A stretch of 36,767 nt of DNA from a virus (IMGVR_UViG_3300032246_000570:1-36767); one strand, 5' to 3'; shown: positions 11,421 through 36,767, numbered from the stretch's first letter. Numbers and translations: made by a program. Notes: generated by a model not told the origin, from the sequence alone.

Positions 11421-11744
11421 TTAGTTGGCTATTGTTTCATCCGATCCGTCCTCATAGCCAAGAACGGCGGAGTTTAGTTTTTGGGATGCGAGCGATTCTA
11501 AGGTCGCTACACAACCACGGAAACCTTTAGCATACCCACAAGCATCCGCAAGTGCATCGGATTTCTTCATTACAGCAGAGCCATTCTGACGCAGGGTTAG
11601 GTTAAGCAAAATAAGACTAAGCCGCTTGCCAGTTTGGGTTGACAAGAATCCAGTCCACGCCTTCTCGTCCTCGTCTTCCCATTTTGGTTCGTTGACCCAT
11701 TCTTGATCTCTGATAAACGCCAATGCTGCTTTTAGTTTTCTCAT
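11421..11744 (-). CDS. Conserved-position hypothetical protein between portal and scaffold, 107 aa
   Basis: I set the start at 11744 because that ATG overlaps the methyltransferase stop as ATGA; an in-frame start at 11759 would overlap more. The protein is mostly helical with an FIRDQEWVNEPKWEDEDEKA region and a Leu-rich helix (RLSLILLNLTLRQNG), and it contains three cysteines or fewer. No known domain is recognised. Its place suggests a head morphogenesis role. Confidence 0.65.
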   Translation of the reverse strand: MRKLKAALAFIRDQEWVNEPKWEDEDEKAWTGFLSTQTGKRLSLILLNLTLRQNGSAVMKKSDALADACGYAKGFRGCVATLESLASQKLNSAVLGYEDGSDETIAN

Positions 11745-12271
11745 AGCTTTATTGCCCAAGAATCGCCCTGAAATAGGACTGCTTCTTTGTCCTTAAATAC
11801 CTCAACCAATGCCTGTTGCACAGCCTTAAAATTCCAGTCATGTCCAGCCATTATCCCGCCAGCCCGAAGCTTGGGCCTCCACCCATTTAAGTCTGCCAGC
11901 ACGCCTTCGTAGCGGTGATCTCCGTCTATGTAAACTAGGTCTAGTTCGCTATCCTTAAAGAATTGGAGCGCGTCTAGGCTTTTACCTCTGCTGTATAAAA
12001 CATTGCCAAGTGGGATTGTGCGTTCTTGGAATGCCTCAAAGACAAACTTCATCGGGCATTGCTGGCTTGCCCTATCGTTAATATCATATCCGTTTAGCCA
12101 AGGATCAACCGCCATAACCTCCTTGAAATGTTTAGCAATAACCACCGTACCTTCCCCGCTGTAAGACCCAATCTCAACCGCCTTATTATTCGCACCCGCC
12201 TCGTTCGCCCACTCACACAGTTTTGTTAAACCTTCCGCTTGGAAGGCATCACGCATTACTGGTACTTTCAA
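11741..12271 (-). CDS. Class I SAM-dependent methyltransferase (Methyltransf_24/CmcI-like), 176 aa
   Basis: The AdoMet-binding motif is AVEIGSYSGEGTVVIA (about residues 31-46). An acidic strand end (AVDPW, near 75), then DLVYIDGDHRYEGVLADL (near 111-128) and LRAGGIMAGHDW (near 136-147) follow. This set is typical of the small O-methyltransferase family with CmcI, where the DGDH motif binds a metal or substrate. It lies between portal and scaffold and overlaps both neighbours by ATGA. The substrate is unknown. A phage methyltransferase inside the head operon is unusual, and the gene may modify a virion or host component. Confidence 0.8.
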   Translation of the reverse strand: MKVPVMRDAFQAEGLTKLCEWANEAGANNKAVEIGSYSGEGTVVIAKHFKEVMAVDPWLNGYDINDRASQQCPMKFVFEAFQERTIPLGNVLYSRGKSLDALQFFKDSELDLVYIDGDHRYEGVLADLNGWRPKLRAGGIMAGHDWNFKAVQQALVEVFKDKEAVLFQGDSWAIKL

Positions 12272-16112: not shown

Positions 16113-16823
16113 TTAGGGGGTATTAACATTTTTATCTGGGGGTTTGGGGAGGGCGGGAGGGGTGTCGTGTCCCTTCTGTAATCTCTTGCGTCTCATAGGT
16201 TTATGACGTTTTCTCTTAACTTCCTGATCCACTAAAACTTTTTCGGGGGTGTTTGTCGCACAATGATTATTGTCTTCACTTGGCTTTGAATGTTGAACAT
16301 CAATCACTTCCGCTTCAATTTGTCTAACTTCTTTCGGTTCAATCGTTTGCACGTTTTTAGAATTATATCCGGCAAGAAGTTGAGCCAAAGCCGGAGAGAG
16401 TCCATGCTGAACATCTTGCTTAACTTCAACTCTATTAGGTGCTTGCACATATCCGAACGATCTTTCCAACATCCATGCTTTGGCTTGCCATGATTTTTCT
16501 CCAGCATTGTTTATTGATTCTAAAAGGTTTACTTCGAGTTCGCGTCGAGCCTTTTTTATAGCAGACGCGAACGGAACATGCCTTTGAGTCCAACACCGGA
16601 GTGTATTCGGACTAATACCCATAATCTCTCCAGCTTTCTCCCACGTCAAACCTTTCCGGATATATTCACAAACCTTTTCCGTCACTTCCTTTGTCAATTT
16701 TGGAACGGTGTCCGGAGGCGGCCTTACCGGTGGCTCAATTAAACTTTTTTCGTCGTTTACTTTGCAAAACACCGTTTCGGGATCTGTATTGTTCAATTCA
16801 ATACCTTTTACGCCATCTTCCAT
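16113..16823 (-). CDS. terS: Terminase small subunit-like DNA-binding protein, 236 aa
   Basis: I place the start at the ATG of 16823 because GGAGG lies five bases upstream; an in-frame ATG at 16841 has no SD. A helix-turn-helix is visible in about residues 44-80 (EVTEKVCEYIRKGLTWEKAGEIMGISPNTLRCW with a recognition-like helix). A helical oligomerisation-like region follows (KKARRELEVNLLESINNAGE). The tail is basic and Pro/Lys/Arg-rich. It lies directly upstream of terL and is the first gene of the late operon. Confidence 0.8.
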   Translation of the reverse strand: MEDGVKGIELNNTDPETVFCKVNDEKSLIEPPVRPPPDTVPKLTKEVTEKVCEYIRKGLTWEKAGEIMGISPNTLRCWTQRHVPFASAIKKARRELEVNLLESINNAGEKSWQAKAWMLERSFGYVQAPNRVEVKQDVQHGLSPALAQLLAGYNSKNVQTIEPKEVRQIEAEVIDVQHSKPSEDNNHCATNTPEKVLVDQEVKRKRHKPMRRKRLQKGHDTPPALPKPPDKNVNTP

Positions 16824-17011
16824 AGTTCCTCCAGATGTCATGTTTTGAGCGTATATGCGTTTTTACGGAGAAATGACTCAAAAAAATCGTTCGAGGATGC
16901 CTCTAAAAATCGTTTTCGTGAGTTGGATTGATACTCCATACCCCTAAAAATAGCACACCGGAAGCCTAAAAAAAGCTTTACGGATTGAGCCTGAATAGGC
17001 AATCTTGACCT
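16824..17011. promoter_or_regulatory. Divergent intergenic region between late operon and amidoligase unit
   Basis: This stretch of about 190 bases separates two diverging genes and should hold promoters both ways. It is A/T-rich with a direct repeat of AAAAATCGTT (near 16885 and 16905) and a repeated CCTAAAAA(A/T)AGC (near 16945 and 16967). A possible plus promoter is TTGGAT (near 16922) with AAAAAT about 17 bases later. A bulged hairpin (GATTG..CCT / AGGCAATC, 16983-17004) lies just before the amidoligase start at 17012, which has no SD. Promoter calls here are weak. Confidence 0.4.
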
Positions 17012-18067
17012 ATGAAAAACACACAATCTGGAGCGGAAACTATCCCCGCCAAAGTGGATAGAGAAAGACTCATGAACGAGTTTTATAGAAAAATTCTTGT
17101 AGATCATAACCAAGCTTATGTATGGAAGCCGAAAGCGGTATCCGTAAGAAGCACATTTGCTACAGAAAACTTTACATGGGAGGAGCGTCAAGAGATTAGG
17201 GATGGAAGAAATGCTATCCGGCGTGCTAGGAGTTATGCGAAAGCAGAAAACAAAGTATCAGAAGACGTAAAAGATAAGTACATGAAAGCATTTAGCGGGA
17301 ACCTAGTTTCCGTTGAATTGGAATGTGTGTTCCATAAAGATTACTCCGTGCCAACGGAAAAGGATCTTGGAATGTTGACAGAGGTTGTCGGAGATGGATC
17401 GGTTAGATATGAAGATCAATCCGGAGAAGAGGGTTCCGGTGCGGAAGTTAAAGTAACGATGAGAAGTGAGAATCCGGTGAGATTGAAAAGCATTGTGGAT
17501 AAGATTAACGCTATGGGCGGTGAAGTTAATACCACATGCGGAATGCATGTTCACCTCGATCAGCGTGGGGTATCTAAAGTAACAGCGACCAAGAGAGCGA
17601 AACGACTTGTGAAAGCTCTTCCGGCTCTAATGAAGTTAGTTCCTGCATCACGATTGGAGAATAGATTCTGCCAAAAAAACTCCTATATTCCCAAACAAGG
17701 AACTTATCGGTTTAGCTCTGACCGATATATGATGATAAATTACCTTTCAGCATATCGGAAGCATAGGACGATAGAGGTGAGACTCCACGGAGGCACGTTG
17801 GATTTTTGGAAAGTTTTGGGGTGGATCAAGCTTTGCCAATTCATCCAAAACTCTTCAGAGGTAGATAAGATAGCAAAAGAGTTTCTTAGTCCATACGCAT
17901 ATTTTGGAATCGAAGAGCTTATCCGGATGGAGACTCTTCCGGATTCAATCCGGCTCTATGTGTGGAGACGTTTTCGGCAGTTTCATGCCGTATATGCGAA
18001 TGCCTTTAGAAATAAGCTTGTTCAGGAAAACAAAATCCATTTAACGGATGGAATGGCAGTAAGTTAA
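17012..18067 (+). CDS. Amidoligase (Amidoligase_2-type, glutamine-synthetase fold), 351 aa
   Basis: This family uses ATP to join a carboxylate to an amine or ammonia. I see the metal/ATP-binding set in order: VSVELECVF (E102, E104), VGDGSVRYE with GAEVKV (D128, E145), CGMHVHLD (H179, H181), ENRF (R218), YMMINYLSAYR (N243) and TIEVRLHGGT (E255, R257, H259, T262). Residues 1-90 are an extra charged, helical N-terminal region. The stop TGA two codons before the ATG fixes the start; no SD is present. It is on the strand opposite to its neighbours and heads a unit with a class II glutamine amidotransferase 19 bases downstream. Its substrate is unknown. Confidence 0.85.
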   Translation: MKNTQSGAETIPAKVDRERLMNEFYRKILVDHNQAYVWKPKAVSVRSTFATENFTWEERQEIRDGRNAIRRARSYAKAENKVSEDVKDKYMKAFSGNLVSVELECVFHKDYSVPTEKDLGMLTEVVGDGSVRYEDQSGEEGSGAEVKVTMRSENPVRLKSIVDKINAMGGEVNTTCGMHVHLDQRGVSKVTATKRAKRLVKALPALMKLVPASRLENRFCQKNSYIPKQGTYRFSSDRYMMINYLSAYRKHRTIEVRLHGGTLDFWKVLGWIKLCQFIQNSSEVDKIAKEFLSPYAYFGIEELIRMETLPDSIRLYVWRRFRQFHAVYANAFRNKLVQENKIHLTDGMAVS

Positions 18068-18086
18068 AAAGAAAGGAAAAGACAAT

Positions 18087-19121
18087 ATGTGCAAATTATT
18101 AGGATTCTCGGTGTCGGAAAAAGTTAGTGAAGGTAAATTATCGGAGATTATTCAAACGTGTCGCGATCTTCTCAAAGATCAAAAAGACGGCTTTGGATAT
18201 GCTCTATCCGGTGGAGATATTAAAGGGATAACATCCCTACGTCTCACAACCGGATCGCTCCTCGGATACAATTATCCGGAGGCCGGCGAGTGGGAAAACT
18301 TGGCAGACCAACCTTATGAGGCAAAGGGTAAGTTATCTCCATGCACTGGAGGGATCTTCCATGGCAGAATCTCCACCAATTCGCTAGGAGTGGAGAACAC
18401 CCACCCCTTTGTGAATGATGATCTTGCCTTGACTCATAATGGGATAGTGGATTACTCCGGAAAGAAGAGAGCCAAAAAAGGAGTGTGTGATAGTGAAGAC
18501 TTGTTTAACACATTCACGATAGGCAAGGGGTGGAAGGAGTTATCCAAGTATTACTCCGGATATGCGGGGATTCTTATTCTTCGTTCCGGAGGAGCCTTGA
18601 CGATATATCGGGATAGCACACCTAACCTTCATATTTGCCTAGTCTCCGGAGGGATTGTTGTTGGGACGACACTCCATGATGTGACAAAGCTTGCGAGCCT
18701 TTTTGATAAGGTTCCAAACGCTCCATGGATGCTCAAGCCGGACTTCGCCACGACGATCCAAGATGGGAAGATCATAGAAAAAGAATCAGTCAAACCTATG
18801 CCTTCTCGTTCTTTTGGCTCCAAGGATTCAAAATCTCTTGGATCTTCCGGATATTACTCCGGATACTCCGGATATGGGAGTTATTTAAAAACAAAGGAGA
18901 AGGAACTATTCCCTGACTATGAGGTAGCGTCCGGAGTGGATGCAAACTCGGAAGCTTGGGAAGATGGATACCAAGCCGGATACGATGATGGATTGAAGGG
19001 ATACACTCACACTATCCTTTCAGCGGATAGGAATTACAAAGCCGGATACAATGAGGGATACGAGGACGGAAAGTTAGAGAAGAACGCTCCTAGCGTTGCC
19101 TCCGGTGAGGTTTGTCTATGA
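18087..19121 (+). CDS. Class II glutamine amidotransferase with Gly/Tyr-rich tail, 344 aa
   Basis: The protein begins MCKLLG, so removal of Met exposes the nucleophilic Cys2 expected of an N-terminal-nucleophile glutaminase. Supporting residues are DGFGYAL (34-40), HGRISTNSL with THPF (R94, 92-108), THNGI (N118, G119 for the oxyanion hole) and CDSEDLF (D138). This domain releases ammonia from glutamine. Residues about 254-266 are a SGYYSGYSGYGSY run, and 291-328 hold repeated GYxxGYxDG units, both outside the usual fold. SD AAAGGA precedes the ATG. The stop overlaps the next gene as ATGA. Ammonia delivery to the amidoligase is inferred from adjacency. Confidence 0.85.
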   Translation: MCKLLGFSVSEKVSEGKLSEIIQTCRDLLKDQKDGFGYALSGGDIKGITSLRLTTGSLLGYNYPEAGEWENLADQPYEAKGKLSPCTGGIFHGRISTNSLGVENTHPFVNDDLALTHNGIVDYSGKKRAKKGVCDSEDLFNTFTIGKGWKELSKYYSGYAGILILRSGGALTIYRDSTPNLHICLVSGGIVVGTTLHDVTKLASLFDKVPNAPWMLKPDFATTIQDGKIIEKESVKPMPSRSFGSKDSKSLGSSGYYSGYSGYGSYLKTKEKELFPDYEVASGVDANSEAWEDGYQAGYDDGLKGYTHTILSADRNYKAGYNEGYEDGKLEKNAPSVASGEVCL

Positions 19122-19261
19122 ATAAGATATATTATGTAGTGGACGACAACCTAGAGCTAGTCTGCTCGGGCTTTACTTCCAGTAAAGACGCATATCGGTG
19201 GATCATAAAAAACGGCGGTGAATGGAAACCTTGGTTCATAGGATCGGAGGATGTGAAATGA
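19118..19261 (+). CDS. Small hypothetical protein of the amidoligase unit, 47 aa
   Basis: The ATG overlaps the amidotransferase stop (ATGA), and its own stop overlaps the next ATG in the same way. The sequence MNKIYYVVDDNLELVCSGF, then DAYRWIIKNGGEWKPWFIG, has a strand-helix-strand look with several aromatics. It resembles small phage accessory proteins but no family is recognised. Coupling suggests co-expression with the enzyme pair. Confidence 0.65.
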   Translation: MNKIYYVVDDNLELVCSGFTSSKDAYRWIIKNGGEWKPWFIGSEDVK

Positions 19262-19344
19262 GTCTTCCATTCGTCTTTGTCCATGGACTATCACTCGGAG
19301 CCGTTCTAGTCGTCATAGTTTGGGTATTTTTTAATAAAAGATAG
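19258..19344 (+). CDS. Tiny single-pass membrane protein, 28 aa
   Basis: The product is a hydrophobic peptide: MSLPFVFVHG, then LSLGAVLVVIVWVFFNKR. Residues 3-25 can span a membrane, with a basic NKR end, so the C-terminus is probably cytoplasmic. It is joined to the upstream gene by an ATGA overlap. It is below the size most gene finders report, so a real protein is likely but not certain. A role in placing the enzymes at the membrane is speculation. Confidence 0.5.
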   Translation: MSLPFVFVHGLSLGAVLVVIVWVFFNKR

Positions 19345-19355
19345 TCCAACCTTGT

Positions 19356-19378
19356 CTCCCCCTTTAGCATGGGGGGAG
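19356..19378 (+). other. GC-rich hairpin between small genes of the amidoligase unit
   Basis: CTCCCCC (19356-19362) pairs with GGGGGAG (19372-19378) around an eight-base loop, and CCTT/AAGG flanks can extend it. A smaller ACCC-GATA-GGGT hairpin follows near 19390. No T-run follows, so it is not a clear terminator. It divides the unit into amidoligase-to-28-aa and 75-aa-to-57-aa parts and may stabilise or attenuate the transcript. Confidence 0.5.
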
Positions 19379-19438
19379 CAAAGGTTTGACCCGATAGGGT
19401 TTGCCTAAAAGAAATAGAAAAGAAAAGGAGACACACAC

Positions 19439-19666
19439 ATGAGTGCATTGTATGGAGTAATAAGAGGAGCTAAAGGAATGGCCACCAGATGCGGACATCG
19501 CACGCTAGAAACTGATTCAGCGTGCTGGAATGGAGCGGTAAGAGTTAGGTTGGAAAACGACAAGGAGACCGGATCGACAACCTATCTTGTCGAATTGGTT
19601 CCTTGGCATGGAGTCGGAGAACATAAGTTCCTAGCTCAAGGAACTATGGGAGGTGAAAGGAAATGA
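19439..19666 (+). CDS. Small hypothetical protein, 75 aa
   Basis: A strong SD (AAGGAG nine bases upstream) supports the start. The protein has a basic Gly-rich N-terminus (MSALYGVIRGAKGMATRCGH) and then beta-like segments (GAVRVRLENDK, TTYLVELVPWHGVGEHKFLA). It contains two cysteines (C18, C29). No catalytic pattern is clear. Its stop overlaps the next ATG (ATGA). It could be a small partner, or an unrelated accessory protein of the host-takeover kind. Confidence 0.7.
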   Translation: MSALYGVIRGAKGMATRCGHRTLETDSACWNGAVRVRLENDKETGSTTYLVELVPWHGVGEHKFLAQGTMGGERK

Positions 19667-19836
19667 GCCGAAAAGCGACAAGTAAACTTCTTGAAATGAT
19701 AGAATGTGGCATCCTTGACAAAGACCAAGTTATTTTAGCATGCTTAAACTACATGAGTGAGGATGATGTTGCAGACATGGCTCATTGTAACGAATTTATT
19801 GAGGAAGAGGAGCAAGAGGAATCGGAAGAGGAATAA
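19663..19836 (+). CDS. Small acidic protein, 57 aa
   Basis: The ATG overlaps the upstream stop. Residues 1-45 look helical (MSRKATSKLLEMIECGILDK, then VILACLNYMSEDDVADMAHC). The last ten or so are nearly all Glu, with three cysteines in total. Acidic-tailed small phage proteins are often DNA mimics or inhibitors, but nothing here proves that. A terminator hairpin begins 17 bases after the stop, so this is the last gene of the plus unit. Confidence 0.65.
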   Translation: MSRKATSKLLEMIECGILDKDQVILACLNYMSEDDVADMAHCNEFIEEEEQEESEEE

Positions 19837-19853
19837 TCTGGAGCCGATCAAAC

Positions 19854-19890
19854 AACCGGAGGAGGTTCCATCCCTTCTCCGGTTTATTTT
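19854..19890 (+). terminator. Rho-independent terminator of the amidoligase unit
   Basis: AACCGGAG (19854-19861) pairs perfectly with CTCCGGTT (19877-19884) around a 15-base loop, and is followed by TATTTTTG. It lies just after the last plus-strand gene, where the plus unit must stop before meeting the converging minus unit. Confidence 0.7.
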
Positions 19891-19900
19891 TGCCTATGTG

Positions 19901-19939
19901 GATATTTCACATGTATTGATATTTCACATGTGTGAAATA
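19901..19939. promoter_or_regulatory. Palindromic operator-like site with direct repeat
   Basis: TATTTCACA (19920-19928) is inverted as TGTGAAATA (19931-19939) across two bases, a perfect nine-base half-site pair. The half-site is also present once more in the same orientation: GATATTTCACATGT occurs at 19901-19914 and again at 19918-19931. This is the form of a binding site for a dimeric regulator, possibly of the host. No ORF in the gap uses it, and it lies between two terminators. Confidence 0.5.
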
Positions 19940-19977
19940 ATTTTTCAGGATTTTTTTTAACCCTATATTTGTAAGCC

Positions 19978-19998
19978 AAAAGCCCCCTATAAGGGGGC
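19978..19998 (-). terminator. Rho-independent terminator of the short minus unit
   Basis: GCCCCCT (19982-19988) pairs perfectly with AGGGGGC (19992-19998) around a three-base loop. Read on the minus strand, TTTT follows. It lies 42 bases after the last minus gene (20040), so it should end that unit and oppose the plus terminator at 19854. Confidence 0.7.
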
Positions 19999-20039
19999 GA
20001 TCAAGAATTATTTTGGTTTGATTTTGAATTTTTTGTTTT

Positions 20040-20210
20040 CTATTTACCTATAAAACAGCAACAAGCCCTGTTACCAAGAGGTCTGTTAATGATGGTTTTA
20101 TTGGCCTCTTTAGCCTTATTTCTGCTATCCCCTATTTGGTTTGCCTTATCGACGCGTTCTAGTGGCATTTCTGATCGATTGCGTGGCATCCTAGAGCCTT
20201 TATTTTTCAT
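20040..20210 (-). CDS. Small basic protein, 56 aa
   Basis: The ATG at 20210 overlaps the stop of the 111-aa gene as ATGA, and the frame stays open to a TAG at 20042-20040. The protein is Lys/Arg/Asn-rich (MKNKGSRMPRNRSEMPLERV) and ends in a CCCF cluster. It could bind nucleic acid by charge, but no fold is recognised. A plus-strand frame over the same bases reads as low-complexity and was not called. Confidence 0.55.
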   Translation of the reverse strand: MKNKGSRMPRNRSEMPLERVDKANQIGDSRNKAKEANKTIINRPLGNRACCCFIGK

Positions 20211-20542
20211 TCAATATCCTCCGTTGGGCATTCATCATGCAGTTCCTTCAAGTTCTTCTGATGTCTGGCAAAGAACGATGCTAGCCTGTCCATGGCCTCT
20301 GTAATATCCTTCCATTCTGCCTCAAATACCTCATAGGAACAGTTATTGTTCATATCATCCACCAACTGACCAAATATCCTTACAACGGCGTGTAGCTGTG
20401 CATTCTCTAGGCTTAATAGATGTATAAACCTACAAGCCCTTCTATAACGCTCCTTATCAGCATTCATTTGCGTGTCGATTGTACCACACCATTCCCCAAT
20501 AGGTAGCCACACTGCCTCGCCCTGCCAGCCTTTTTCTTTCAT
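20207..20542 (-). CDS. Hypothetical protein, first gene of a short minus unit, 111 aa
   Basis: The sequence is Trp-rich at the start (MKEKGWQGEAVWLPIGEW) and then mostly helical with conserved-looking Arg/Asp (RYRRACRFIHLLSLENAQLH, WKDITEAMDRLASFFARHQ). No enzymatic motif is visible. The transcript leader carries a hairpin (20561-20606) and an upstream -10 box (20618-20623), so the gene seems to be expressed from its own promoter. Its coding frame is coupled to the 56-aa gene. Confidence 0.65.
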   Translation of the reverse strand: MKEKGWQGEAVWLPIGEWCGTIDTQMNADKERYRRACRFIHLLSLENAQLHAVVRIFGQLVDDMNNNCSYEVFEAEWKDITEAMDRLASFFARHQKNLKELHDECPTEDIE

Positions 20543-35518: not shown

Positions 35519-36767
35519 CTATCTGCTGAATGAGAACGAAGGCAACAGCGATCCAACACCGCCAACAATTTGTGCGAATTGTTGCGCTCCGGATGGCTGG
35601 CTTGCAATTGCCCCAACCTGCGCGCCGTAGGTGCTGGCTTGGTAATTGGACTGCGATCTATATAGATCATTAAATGCTTGAGTAAGAGCAACAGGAATAT
35701 TGGGATTGGTTGTCTGATAGAAGTTAGCAGCCGTTGACGGCTGTTGATTAAACCCACCAGGCAATGCCTGATTGGCTTGAATGTAGCTCTGCATCGCACC
35801 CTGCTGTTGGCCTGTTCTTGCTTGAGAAAGGTTGTAGATGGAAGGTCCTCCAGCAACAAATCCAGAAGCTGCACCAAGCCTATTCTGACGTAATGCGTCA
35901 CGGAACGCTATATCAGCTTTGAGCGCGTCACCAGTTGACTGACCAGATCCAAGGAAGCTTTGTGCTGCTCCGTAGCGTGCCAACTTGCGTTGCTCGCCAG
36001 CAGCACCAATCTGTGCGGCTTCTTGCACTGCTGGTCCAAGACCAAAAATGTTTCCGCGCGCTGTCTGCGCGCCACGAATAGCTTGTTCGTATCCGCGAAG
36101 TTCTTCCGCGCCAATGGTAGACCCAAGACGTAATTGATTAAGTGCCTCGTCCTCAATTGTTTTACGCAATTTCTCTGTTTGCGGAGTTGTAGTAGTTCCA
36201 ACTGGCTGAGTGGCCATCTGACGATATTGCTGGCCAAGGGCAACCGATGTTTTGTATGATTCAGGATCAATCTGGCGCAGTTGTTGTGTCGCGCGCTCTT
36301 CTGGCAATTGAACGAATGATCGAAATGACGTAATCTCCTTTAAGCCTTCGGGGCTATTGGTTTTTATTGGCGTGAAATTCTTTTGCATATTCTGCGCGTT
36401 TGTTACTGCGCTTGTTACGCTATTTAGGTCATTTCTAAGTTGCTTTATGAATGCTTCGGAAGCTGTACGTCTAGGATCTTTAGCTGGTAAATCAGCAAGA
36501 AGTTTATTCGCCGTAGCGAGCCGTTCATTGATTCCAGCAATCTGAGTATTGCCACGATCAATTACGCTGTTTAAGCGGGATAGTTTTGAGTTGTTGTAAT
36601 CATCAACAATTTGCTGATCTGAGACTTGGAAATTAAGTTTTGACCCAAGGTCAGACGATCCGTAGTTACGCCCAGCGGAAAGCTGTGCTAAGGCTTGGTT
36701 GAATTGCGGACCAGCGTTTTGATTTTGCATTCCGCCCCCACCAGCAGTTAATGCTTGGATTTGGGAG
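35519..36767 (-). CDS. 3' part of 510-aa internal virion (ejection-type) protein
   Basis: This is the C-terminal part of the protein whose first 135 codons are at 1-407; positions 36645-36767 duplicate 1-123. It is Gln/Ala/Arg-rich and mostly helical (about 110-380 of the whole), with a low-complexity Gly/Ala/Gln region in the last 150 residues and a hydrophobic end (QIVGGVGSLLPSFSFS). It stops 11 bases before the 305-aa gene. No start should be taken at 36730, an internal Met. The role is inferred from position among the ejection genes. Confidence 0.85.
   Translation of the reverse strand, partial: SQIQALTAGGGGMQNQNAGPQFNQALAQLSAGRNYGSSDLGSKLNFQVSDQQIVDDYNNSKLSRLNSVIDRGNTQIAGINERLATANKLLADLPAKDPRRTASEAFIKQLRNDLNSVTSAVTNAQNMQKNFTPIKTNSPEGLKEITSFRSFVQLPEERATQQLRQIDPESYKTSVALGQQYRQMATQPVGTTTTPQTEKLRKTIEDEALNQLRLGSTIGAEELRGYEQAIRGAQTARGNIFGLGPAVQEAAQIGAAGEQRKLARYGAAQSFLGSGQSTGDALKADIAFRDALRQNRLGAASGFVAGGPSIYNLSQARTGQQQGAMQSYIQANQALPGGFNQQPSTAANFYQTTNPNIPVALTQAFNDLYRSQSNYQASTYGAQVGAIASQPSGAQQFAQIVGGVGSLLPSFSFSR
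36645..36767. repeat. Right copy of 123-bp terminal direct repeat
   Basis: Identical to 1-123. When one copy is removed the molecule closes into a circle of 36,644 bp and the 510-aa reading frame becomes whole, which is strong internal support for a complete genome. Confidence 0.95.

Follow-up and report, generated by a model that had tools for sequence, protein, structure and literature searches.

The freshwater phage IMGVR_UViG_3300032246_000570 carries, antisense to its other recognised genes, a gene pair that encodes an amidoligase of the Amidoligase_2 family and a class-II glutamine amidotransferase (GATase). Judging from sequence, this pair probably forms a two-subunit, glutamine-fed unit for carboxylate amidation (or amide ligation) that is carried as accessory cargo and alters a host component. 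It occupies the interval between the genes for the terminase small subunit (TerS) and the primase. Cargo in this antisense accessory hotspot is interchangeable, and the loci L057-L126 have equivalent intervals. Greater novelty lies in a structured RNA element that recurs within these hotspots; the enzyme pair is not unprecedented and is a diverged example of an already known kind of phage pair.

Organization of the antisense cassette

The window, by which we mean the whole stretch of 36,767 nucleotides that was analysed, ends in a 123-bp direct terminal repeat (positions 1-123 and 36645-36767), which indicates a complete genome of about 36.6 kb. The phage belongs to an uncultured freshwater group. 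Its nearest named relatives by large terminase subunit (TerL) are Akkermansia phages (39%); neither TerL nor the portal protein points to a host, and a scan of bacterial genomes with the GATase returned only partial matches at 27-28%, again with no host. The genes recognised outside the cassette, encoding the terminase, portal, major head protein, primase/helicase, exonuclease, RusA and endolysin, all lie on the minus strand.

The cassette (17012-19836) runs on the plus strand, between the TerS gene and a 111-aa ORF (gp111) that adjoins the primase/helicase gene (Table 1). It comprises six ORFs of 351, 344, 47, 28, 75 and 57 aa. The amidoligase and GATase genes are placed head to tail with 19 nt between them, and ATGA overlaps join the GATase to the 47-aa ORF, the 47-aa to the 28-aa ORF and the 75-aa to the 57-aa ORF. 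ORF calls, these overlaps and a 12-pair hairpin with a T run thus reproduced the six ORFs, the spacing and the terminator described in an earlier note on this DNA. Upstream of the amidoligase start, a block on the plus strand (16930-17011, CATACCCC..AAAATAGCACACCGGA) is kept in close relatives and may be the promoter of the antisense unit. Elsewhere in the genome, a short minus-strand ORF between the portal and head genes (11741-12271) matches only part of the DNA methyltransferase family phrog_2675.

Table 1. Features of the cassette and its borders in the window.
Feature	Position	Strand	Evidence
Amidoligase_2, 351 aa	17012..18067	+	Pfam PF12224, phrog_2443, invariant residues, dN/dS
Class-II GATase, 344 aa	18087..19121	+	Sub-threshold GATase_6, relatives, GlmS alignment, hhalign, invariant residues
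47-aa ORF, hotspot family	19118..19261	+	Same-family ORFs in 20 other loci
28-aa ORF, probable single-membrane-helix peptide	19258..19344	+	43-93% identity in close relatives
Structured intercistronic RNA, two alternative covarying folds	19344..19412	+	No Rfam match; covariance model
75-aa ORF, hotspot cargo	19439..19666	+	Copies also without enzyme pair
57-aa acidic ORF	19663..19836	+	No tblastn match in 18 relatives
Intrinsic-terminator-like hairpin, end of antisense unit	19854..19884	+	12 pairs and T run
TerS, one hotspot border	16113..16841	-	phrog_4102, E=2e-20
Conserved 111-aa ORF (gp111), other hotspot border	20207..20542	-	Adjoins primase/helicase gene

An Amidoligase_2 enzyme and a diverged class-II GATase

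The first enzyme matches the Pfam family Amidoligase_2 (PF12224) at E=5.9e-13, with 49.7 bits against a curated cut-off of 22, and phrog_2443 at E=1.9e-16. When it was compared with amidoligases of Arthrobacter, Porphyromonas and Bacillus phages (21-24% identity), nine residues, D128, S130, H179, H181, R214, N243, E255, R257 and H259, proved invariant in the four divergent phage families, as expected for the acidic/His/Arg active site of a glutamine-synthetase-like fold. Close relatives also share an unvarying ExE pair (E102/E104), which MAFFT left unaligned to the distant enzymes. A PDB sequence search returned nothing for this protein and its AlphaFold model was poor (pLDDT 57, pTM 0.34). 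We regard the Amidoligase_2 assignment as firm, which predicts a carboxylate-amine/ammonia ligase of the glutamine-synthetase fold.

The product of the second gene had been called an N-terminal-Cys glutaminase. Its own match to the Pfam family GATase_6 lies under the curated cut-off of 27 (E=0.06, 13.8 bits), as does that of relatives at about 50% identity, which reach E=5e-5 and 23.7 bits. The assignment draws on these relatives and on several further comparisons: hhalign related the window GATase family to the annotated GATases of Arthrobacter phages (E=9.4e-5, probability 59%); the active-site stretch of GlmS, with its catalytic Arg and Asn-Gly, aligns with the protein at profile positions 88-128; and C2, directly after the initiator Met, is invariant in 12 relatives together with R94, N118-G119 and D135. 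A PDB sequence search gave weak matches to GlmS only, the AlphaFold model was poor (pLDDT 49), and tblastn found no match among 50,697 phage records. The C-terminus consists of a low-complexity linker followed by a predicted helical GYxxGYxxG tail. All together, these comparisons support a class-II (N-terminal Cys) glutamine amidotransferase that is more diverged than its amidoligase partner.

dN/dS was 0.09-0.13 for the amidoligase and 0.05-0.10 for the GATase, a combined range of 0.05-0.13 that indicates strong purifying selection on both.

The two enzymes form a mobile two-gene unit

Scanning 2.9 million viral contigs with the GATase yielded 18 relatives, and all 18 have an amidoligase 16-23 nt upstream, which bears out the coupling of the two enzymes that had been proposed from the window. 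The reciprocal, alignment-based scan with the amidoligase yielded 19 relatives, the sole one without a visible GATase being L023, where the contig edge falls inside the amidoligase gene. In 14 of the 18 GATase relatives the genome layout is that of the window and the cassette sits at the equivalent place. The other four (L015-L018, of which L015 and L016 are near-identical in the pair region) carry the pair at 46-51% identity and have no other gene in common with the window in their available flanks, hence the two-gene unit is the mobile core of the cassette. Directly 5' of the amidoligase in L016 (3134-3730, plus strand), and similarly in L018, lies an ORF with a weak, partial likeness to ATP-dependent DNA ligases (E=0.013).

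It would also be conceivable that amidoligase and GATase are neighbours without a joint function, the GATase acting for example as a stand-alone glutaminase. Indeed, some Amidoligase_2 genes of other phages have no annotated GATase nearby: the more distant Porphyromonas and Bacillus phage enzymes have none within 5 kb, so a GATase is not a general requirement of the family and the pairing is a trait of some lineages. Moreover, in L019 (3933-5447) the amidoligase is 71% and the GATase 92% identical to the window, pointing to recombination between the two genes and showing that they can recombine apart. Against this, adjacency and order never vary, either among the close relatives or in the unrelated phage groups, and we consider independent functions very improbable.

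The pair is one cargo of an antisense accessory hotspot

From a TerL search with 189 relatives, of which 80 were kept, we obtained 54 complete TerS-gp111 intervals; in the window this interval spans 16842-20206. The pair is present in six of the 54 and absent from the other 48, which hold other ORFs, mostly antisense: GP88, DUF7227, DUF7222, an ArdC-type antirestriction protein and many small ORFs of no known family. HNH and weak GIY-YIG endonuclease matches also occur in pair-less intervals, on the strand opposite to the antisense cargo. The ArdC-type alternative cargo, an ArdcN domain with a zincin metallopeptidase, is found in L088 (3696-4652, minus strand).

Every contig with TerL identity of at least 92% has the cassette, suggesting a stable trait of that clade rather than transient cargo; the contigs retrieved at 85-88% lack it, and it is present again in L011-L014 (TerL 84% and 78-79% where seen).

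The small ORFs behave differently from the enzymes. The 47-aa family has members in 20 other loci; 19 of these loci, some of them near-duplicates, lack the pair. The 75-aa ORF has 74% identical copies in five loci that all lack the pair (L068, L072, L073, L074 and L107) and is replaced by other ORFs in L009-L011. Since both families are also found where the pair is missing, the small ORFs do not belong to the enzyme unit. The 28-aa ORF is kept in close relatives (43-93% identity), and peptides that resemble it, by eye and not by score, were seen in eight loci, including hotspots without the pair; for the 57-aa ORF, tblastn in 18 relatives gave no match. The view of the six ORFs as a single unit was thus not supported. 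The accessory role suggested in the earlier note was upheld, as the pair shares its antisense hotspot with other cargo that includes the ArdC antirestriction gene.

Related phage cassettes and the possible function of the pair

The earlier note also implied that the pair is rare, which is contradicted by both annotation and literature. In the Arthrobacter phages Ottawa (gp65-66) and Edmundo (gp97-98), an annotated amidoligase is followed by an adjacent annotated GATase, as in the window. These amidoligases are about 29-30% identical to that of the window over part of their length and the GATases are related by profile comparison only; unlike the window pair, they have other flanking genes and lie in no antisense hotspot. 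Amidoligase(s) and a GATase are also found together in cassettes of LUZ24-like (UFV-P2, tf), RIO-1/PSA-HP1-like and phiEco32-like podoviruses (PMC3890496, which gives a gene table, and PMC5498523). These cassettes are larger and additionally contain a PF14395 COOH-NH2 ligase, an ATP-grasp protein and a gamma-glutamyl cyclotransferase, whereas that of the window has two enzymes only; a PHROGs search with the cassette proteins and a further 30 proteins of the window matched none of the three additional families. Finally, the OM43 phages MEP401 and MEP402 and more than 30 metagenomic genomes are reported to have an amidoligase (PF12224) and a GATase (PF13522) as auxiliary genes, a likeness at the level of families (PMC10580990). 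The cited literature on these phage cassettes contained no biochemical characterisation or substrate.

How the pair may act can be proposed from the enzyme families. The N-terminal Cys of the GATase would free ammonia from glutamine, and the amidoligase, with its glutamine-synthetase-like fold, would use ATP to activate a carboxylate; the activated carboxylate would then be joined to the GATase-derived ammonia or, less likely, to another amine. We infer both the transfer of ammonia between the two subunits and the biological role. The target would most likely be something of the host, whether the cell envelope, a protein or a metabolite, that is modified for the benefit of the phage, possibly through superinfection exclusion or counter-defence. 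A host-interaction role is plausible because the pair sits among interchangeable cargo that includes an antirestriction gene. Neither enzyme matched the PADLOC defence models.

More specifically, the pair could amidate the peptidoglycan, at free carboxylates of the stem peptides, or a different polymer of the envelope, and thereby block adsorption or lysis by competing phages. For similar phage cassettes with both families, among them phiEco32-like and RIO-1-like ones, gene content has led to proposals of cell-wall modification or superinfection exclusion (PMC5498523, PMC10580990, PMC11318856), two of the published cell-wall proposals citing Iyer et al. 2009. By analogy this is a possible role here, but one that we hold tentatively and think somewhat improbable, as the larger window proteins have no PHROGs match to a second COOH-NH2 ligase, an ATP-grasp protein or a gamma-glutamyl cyclotransferase. 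We find it rather unlikely that an amidated metabolite is the product of the pair, or that its target is a nucleotide or DNA base. The phage does encode DNA methyltransferases and a 2OG-Fe(II) oxygenase, and amidoligases with the glutamine-synthetase fold are general carboxylate-amine ligases; the methyltransferase and oxygenase genes are nevertheless far from the cassette, genes of known hypermodification pathways were not recognised, and the unrelated pair-bearing phages lack any other window gene in their available flanks. The broader reading, of a glutamine-fed amidation unit directed at a host component, is the one that we prefer.

A structured RNA element marks the hotspot

A 69-nt element located between the ORFs of 28 and 75 aa is conserved even where the downstream ORF changes. 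No Rfam covariance model matched it at a permissive E-value in the window and three relatives. With a covariance model built from eight copies and seeded from this locus, all 60 sense-strand matches in loci with complete intervals fell inside the interval and on the strand of the cargo. Of 45 loci without the pair that were searched, 43 had a match at E<1e-3. There are one to three copies per hotspot. The element often starts within 5 nt of the upstream stop codon, and an accessory gene of varying identity usually starts 18-64 nt 3' of it. The unrelated phages L016-L018 have the pair but lack the element, which is thus a feature of the hotspot and not of the enzymes.

Two folds were compared on an independent MAFFT alignment of 39 copies. 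In the first, one long hairpin, 98.6% of the cells were paired and nine pairs showed changes on both sides; in the second, two successive hairpins, the corresponding values were 93.8% and 13 pairs, with some pairs having unpaired cells in many sequences. Controls slid along the alignment reached 40-65% pairing. The folds are mutually exclusive apart from a common apical helix, which contributes seven both-sided pairs to each; outside it, the both-sided changes mostly track one split between two sequence types and so reflect few evolutionary events. The long hairpin is clearly favoured energetically in the window copy, and the two folds are nearly equal in the L120 copy (-25.5 and -25.2 kcal/mol).

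Several known types of element were considered and set aside. The element has no T run, unlike an intrinsic terminator; its outer motifs are inverted relative to the integron attC consensus; and it resembles the type I-C CRISPR repeat in the hairpin alone, its outer helix having no counterpart. No sigma-70 promoter-like or terminator-like site was found at 19344-19412, where there may still be a phage-specific promoter.

The closest parallel may be the PeSL of T4-type phages, which combines an early promoter with an intrinsic terminator stem-loop. In both cases a structured element recurs between accessory genes that can be exchanged, within a variable part of the phage genome; the present element differs in having two alternative covarying folds and neither a recognised promoter nor a U-tract terminator. 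In the sources searched, a limited test, the hotspot with its RNA element was not described. There is in our judgement an even chance that this is an apparently undescribed, probably two-state regulatory RNA that precedes unrelated hotspot genes, among them those of the enzyme pair, and controls them or helps to exchange them.

Cassettes with an amidoligase and a GATase are found repeatedly among unrelated phages, and the two-gene version offers a simple construct for finding the amidated target. The hotspot in turn provides a set of genes for phage-host interaction that can replace one another, many without an assigned function, marked by a common RNA element that can serve as a searchable handle for more such accessory genes. 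If the element is a real switch, it would represent a new type of phage gene-control RNA.
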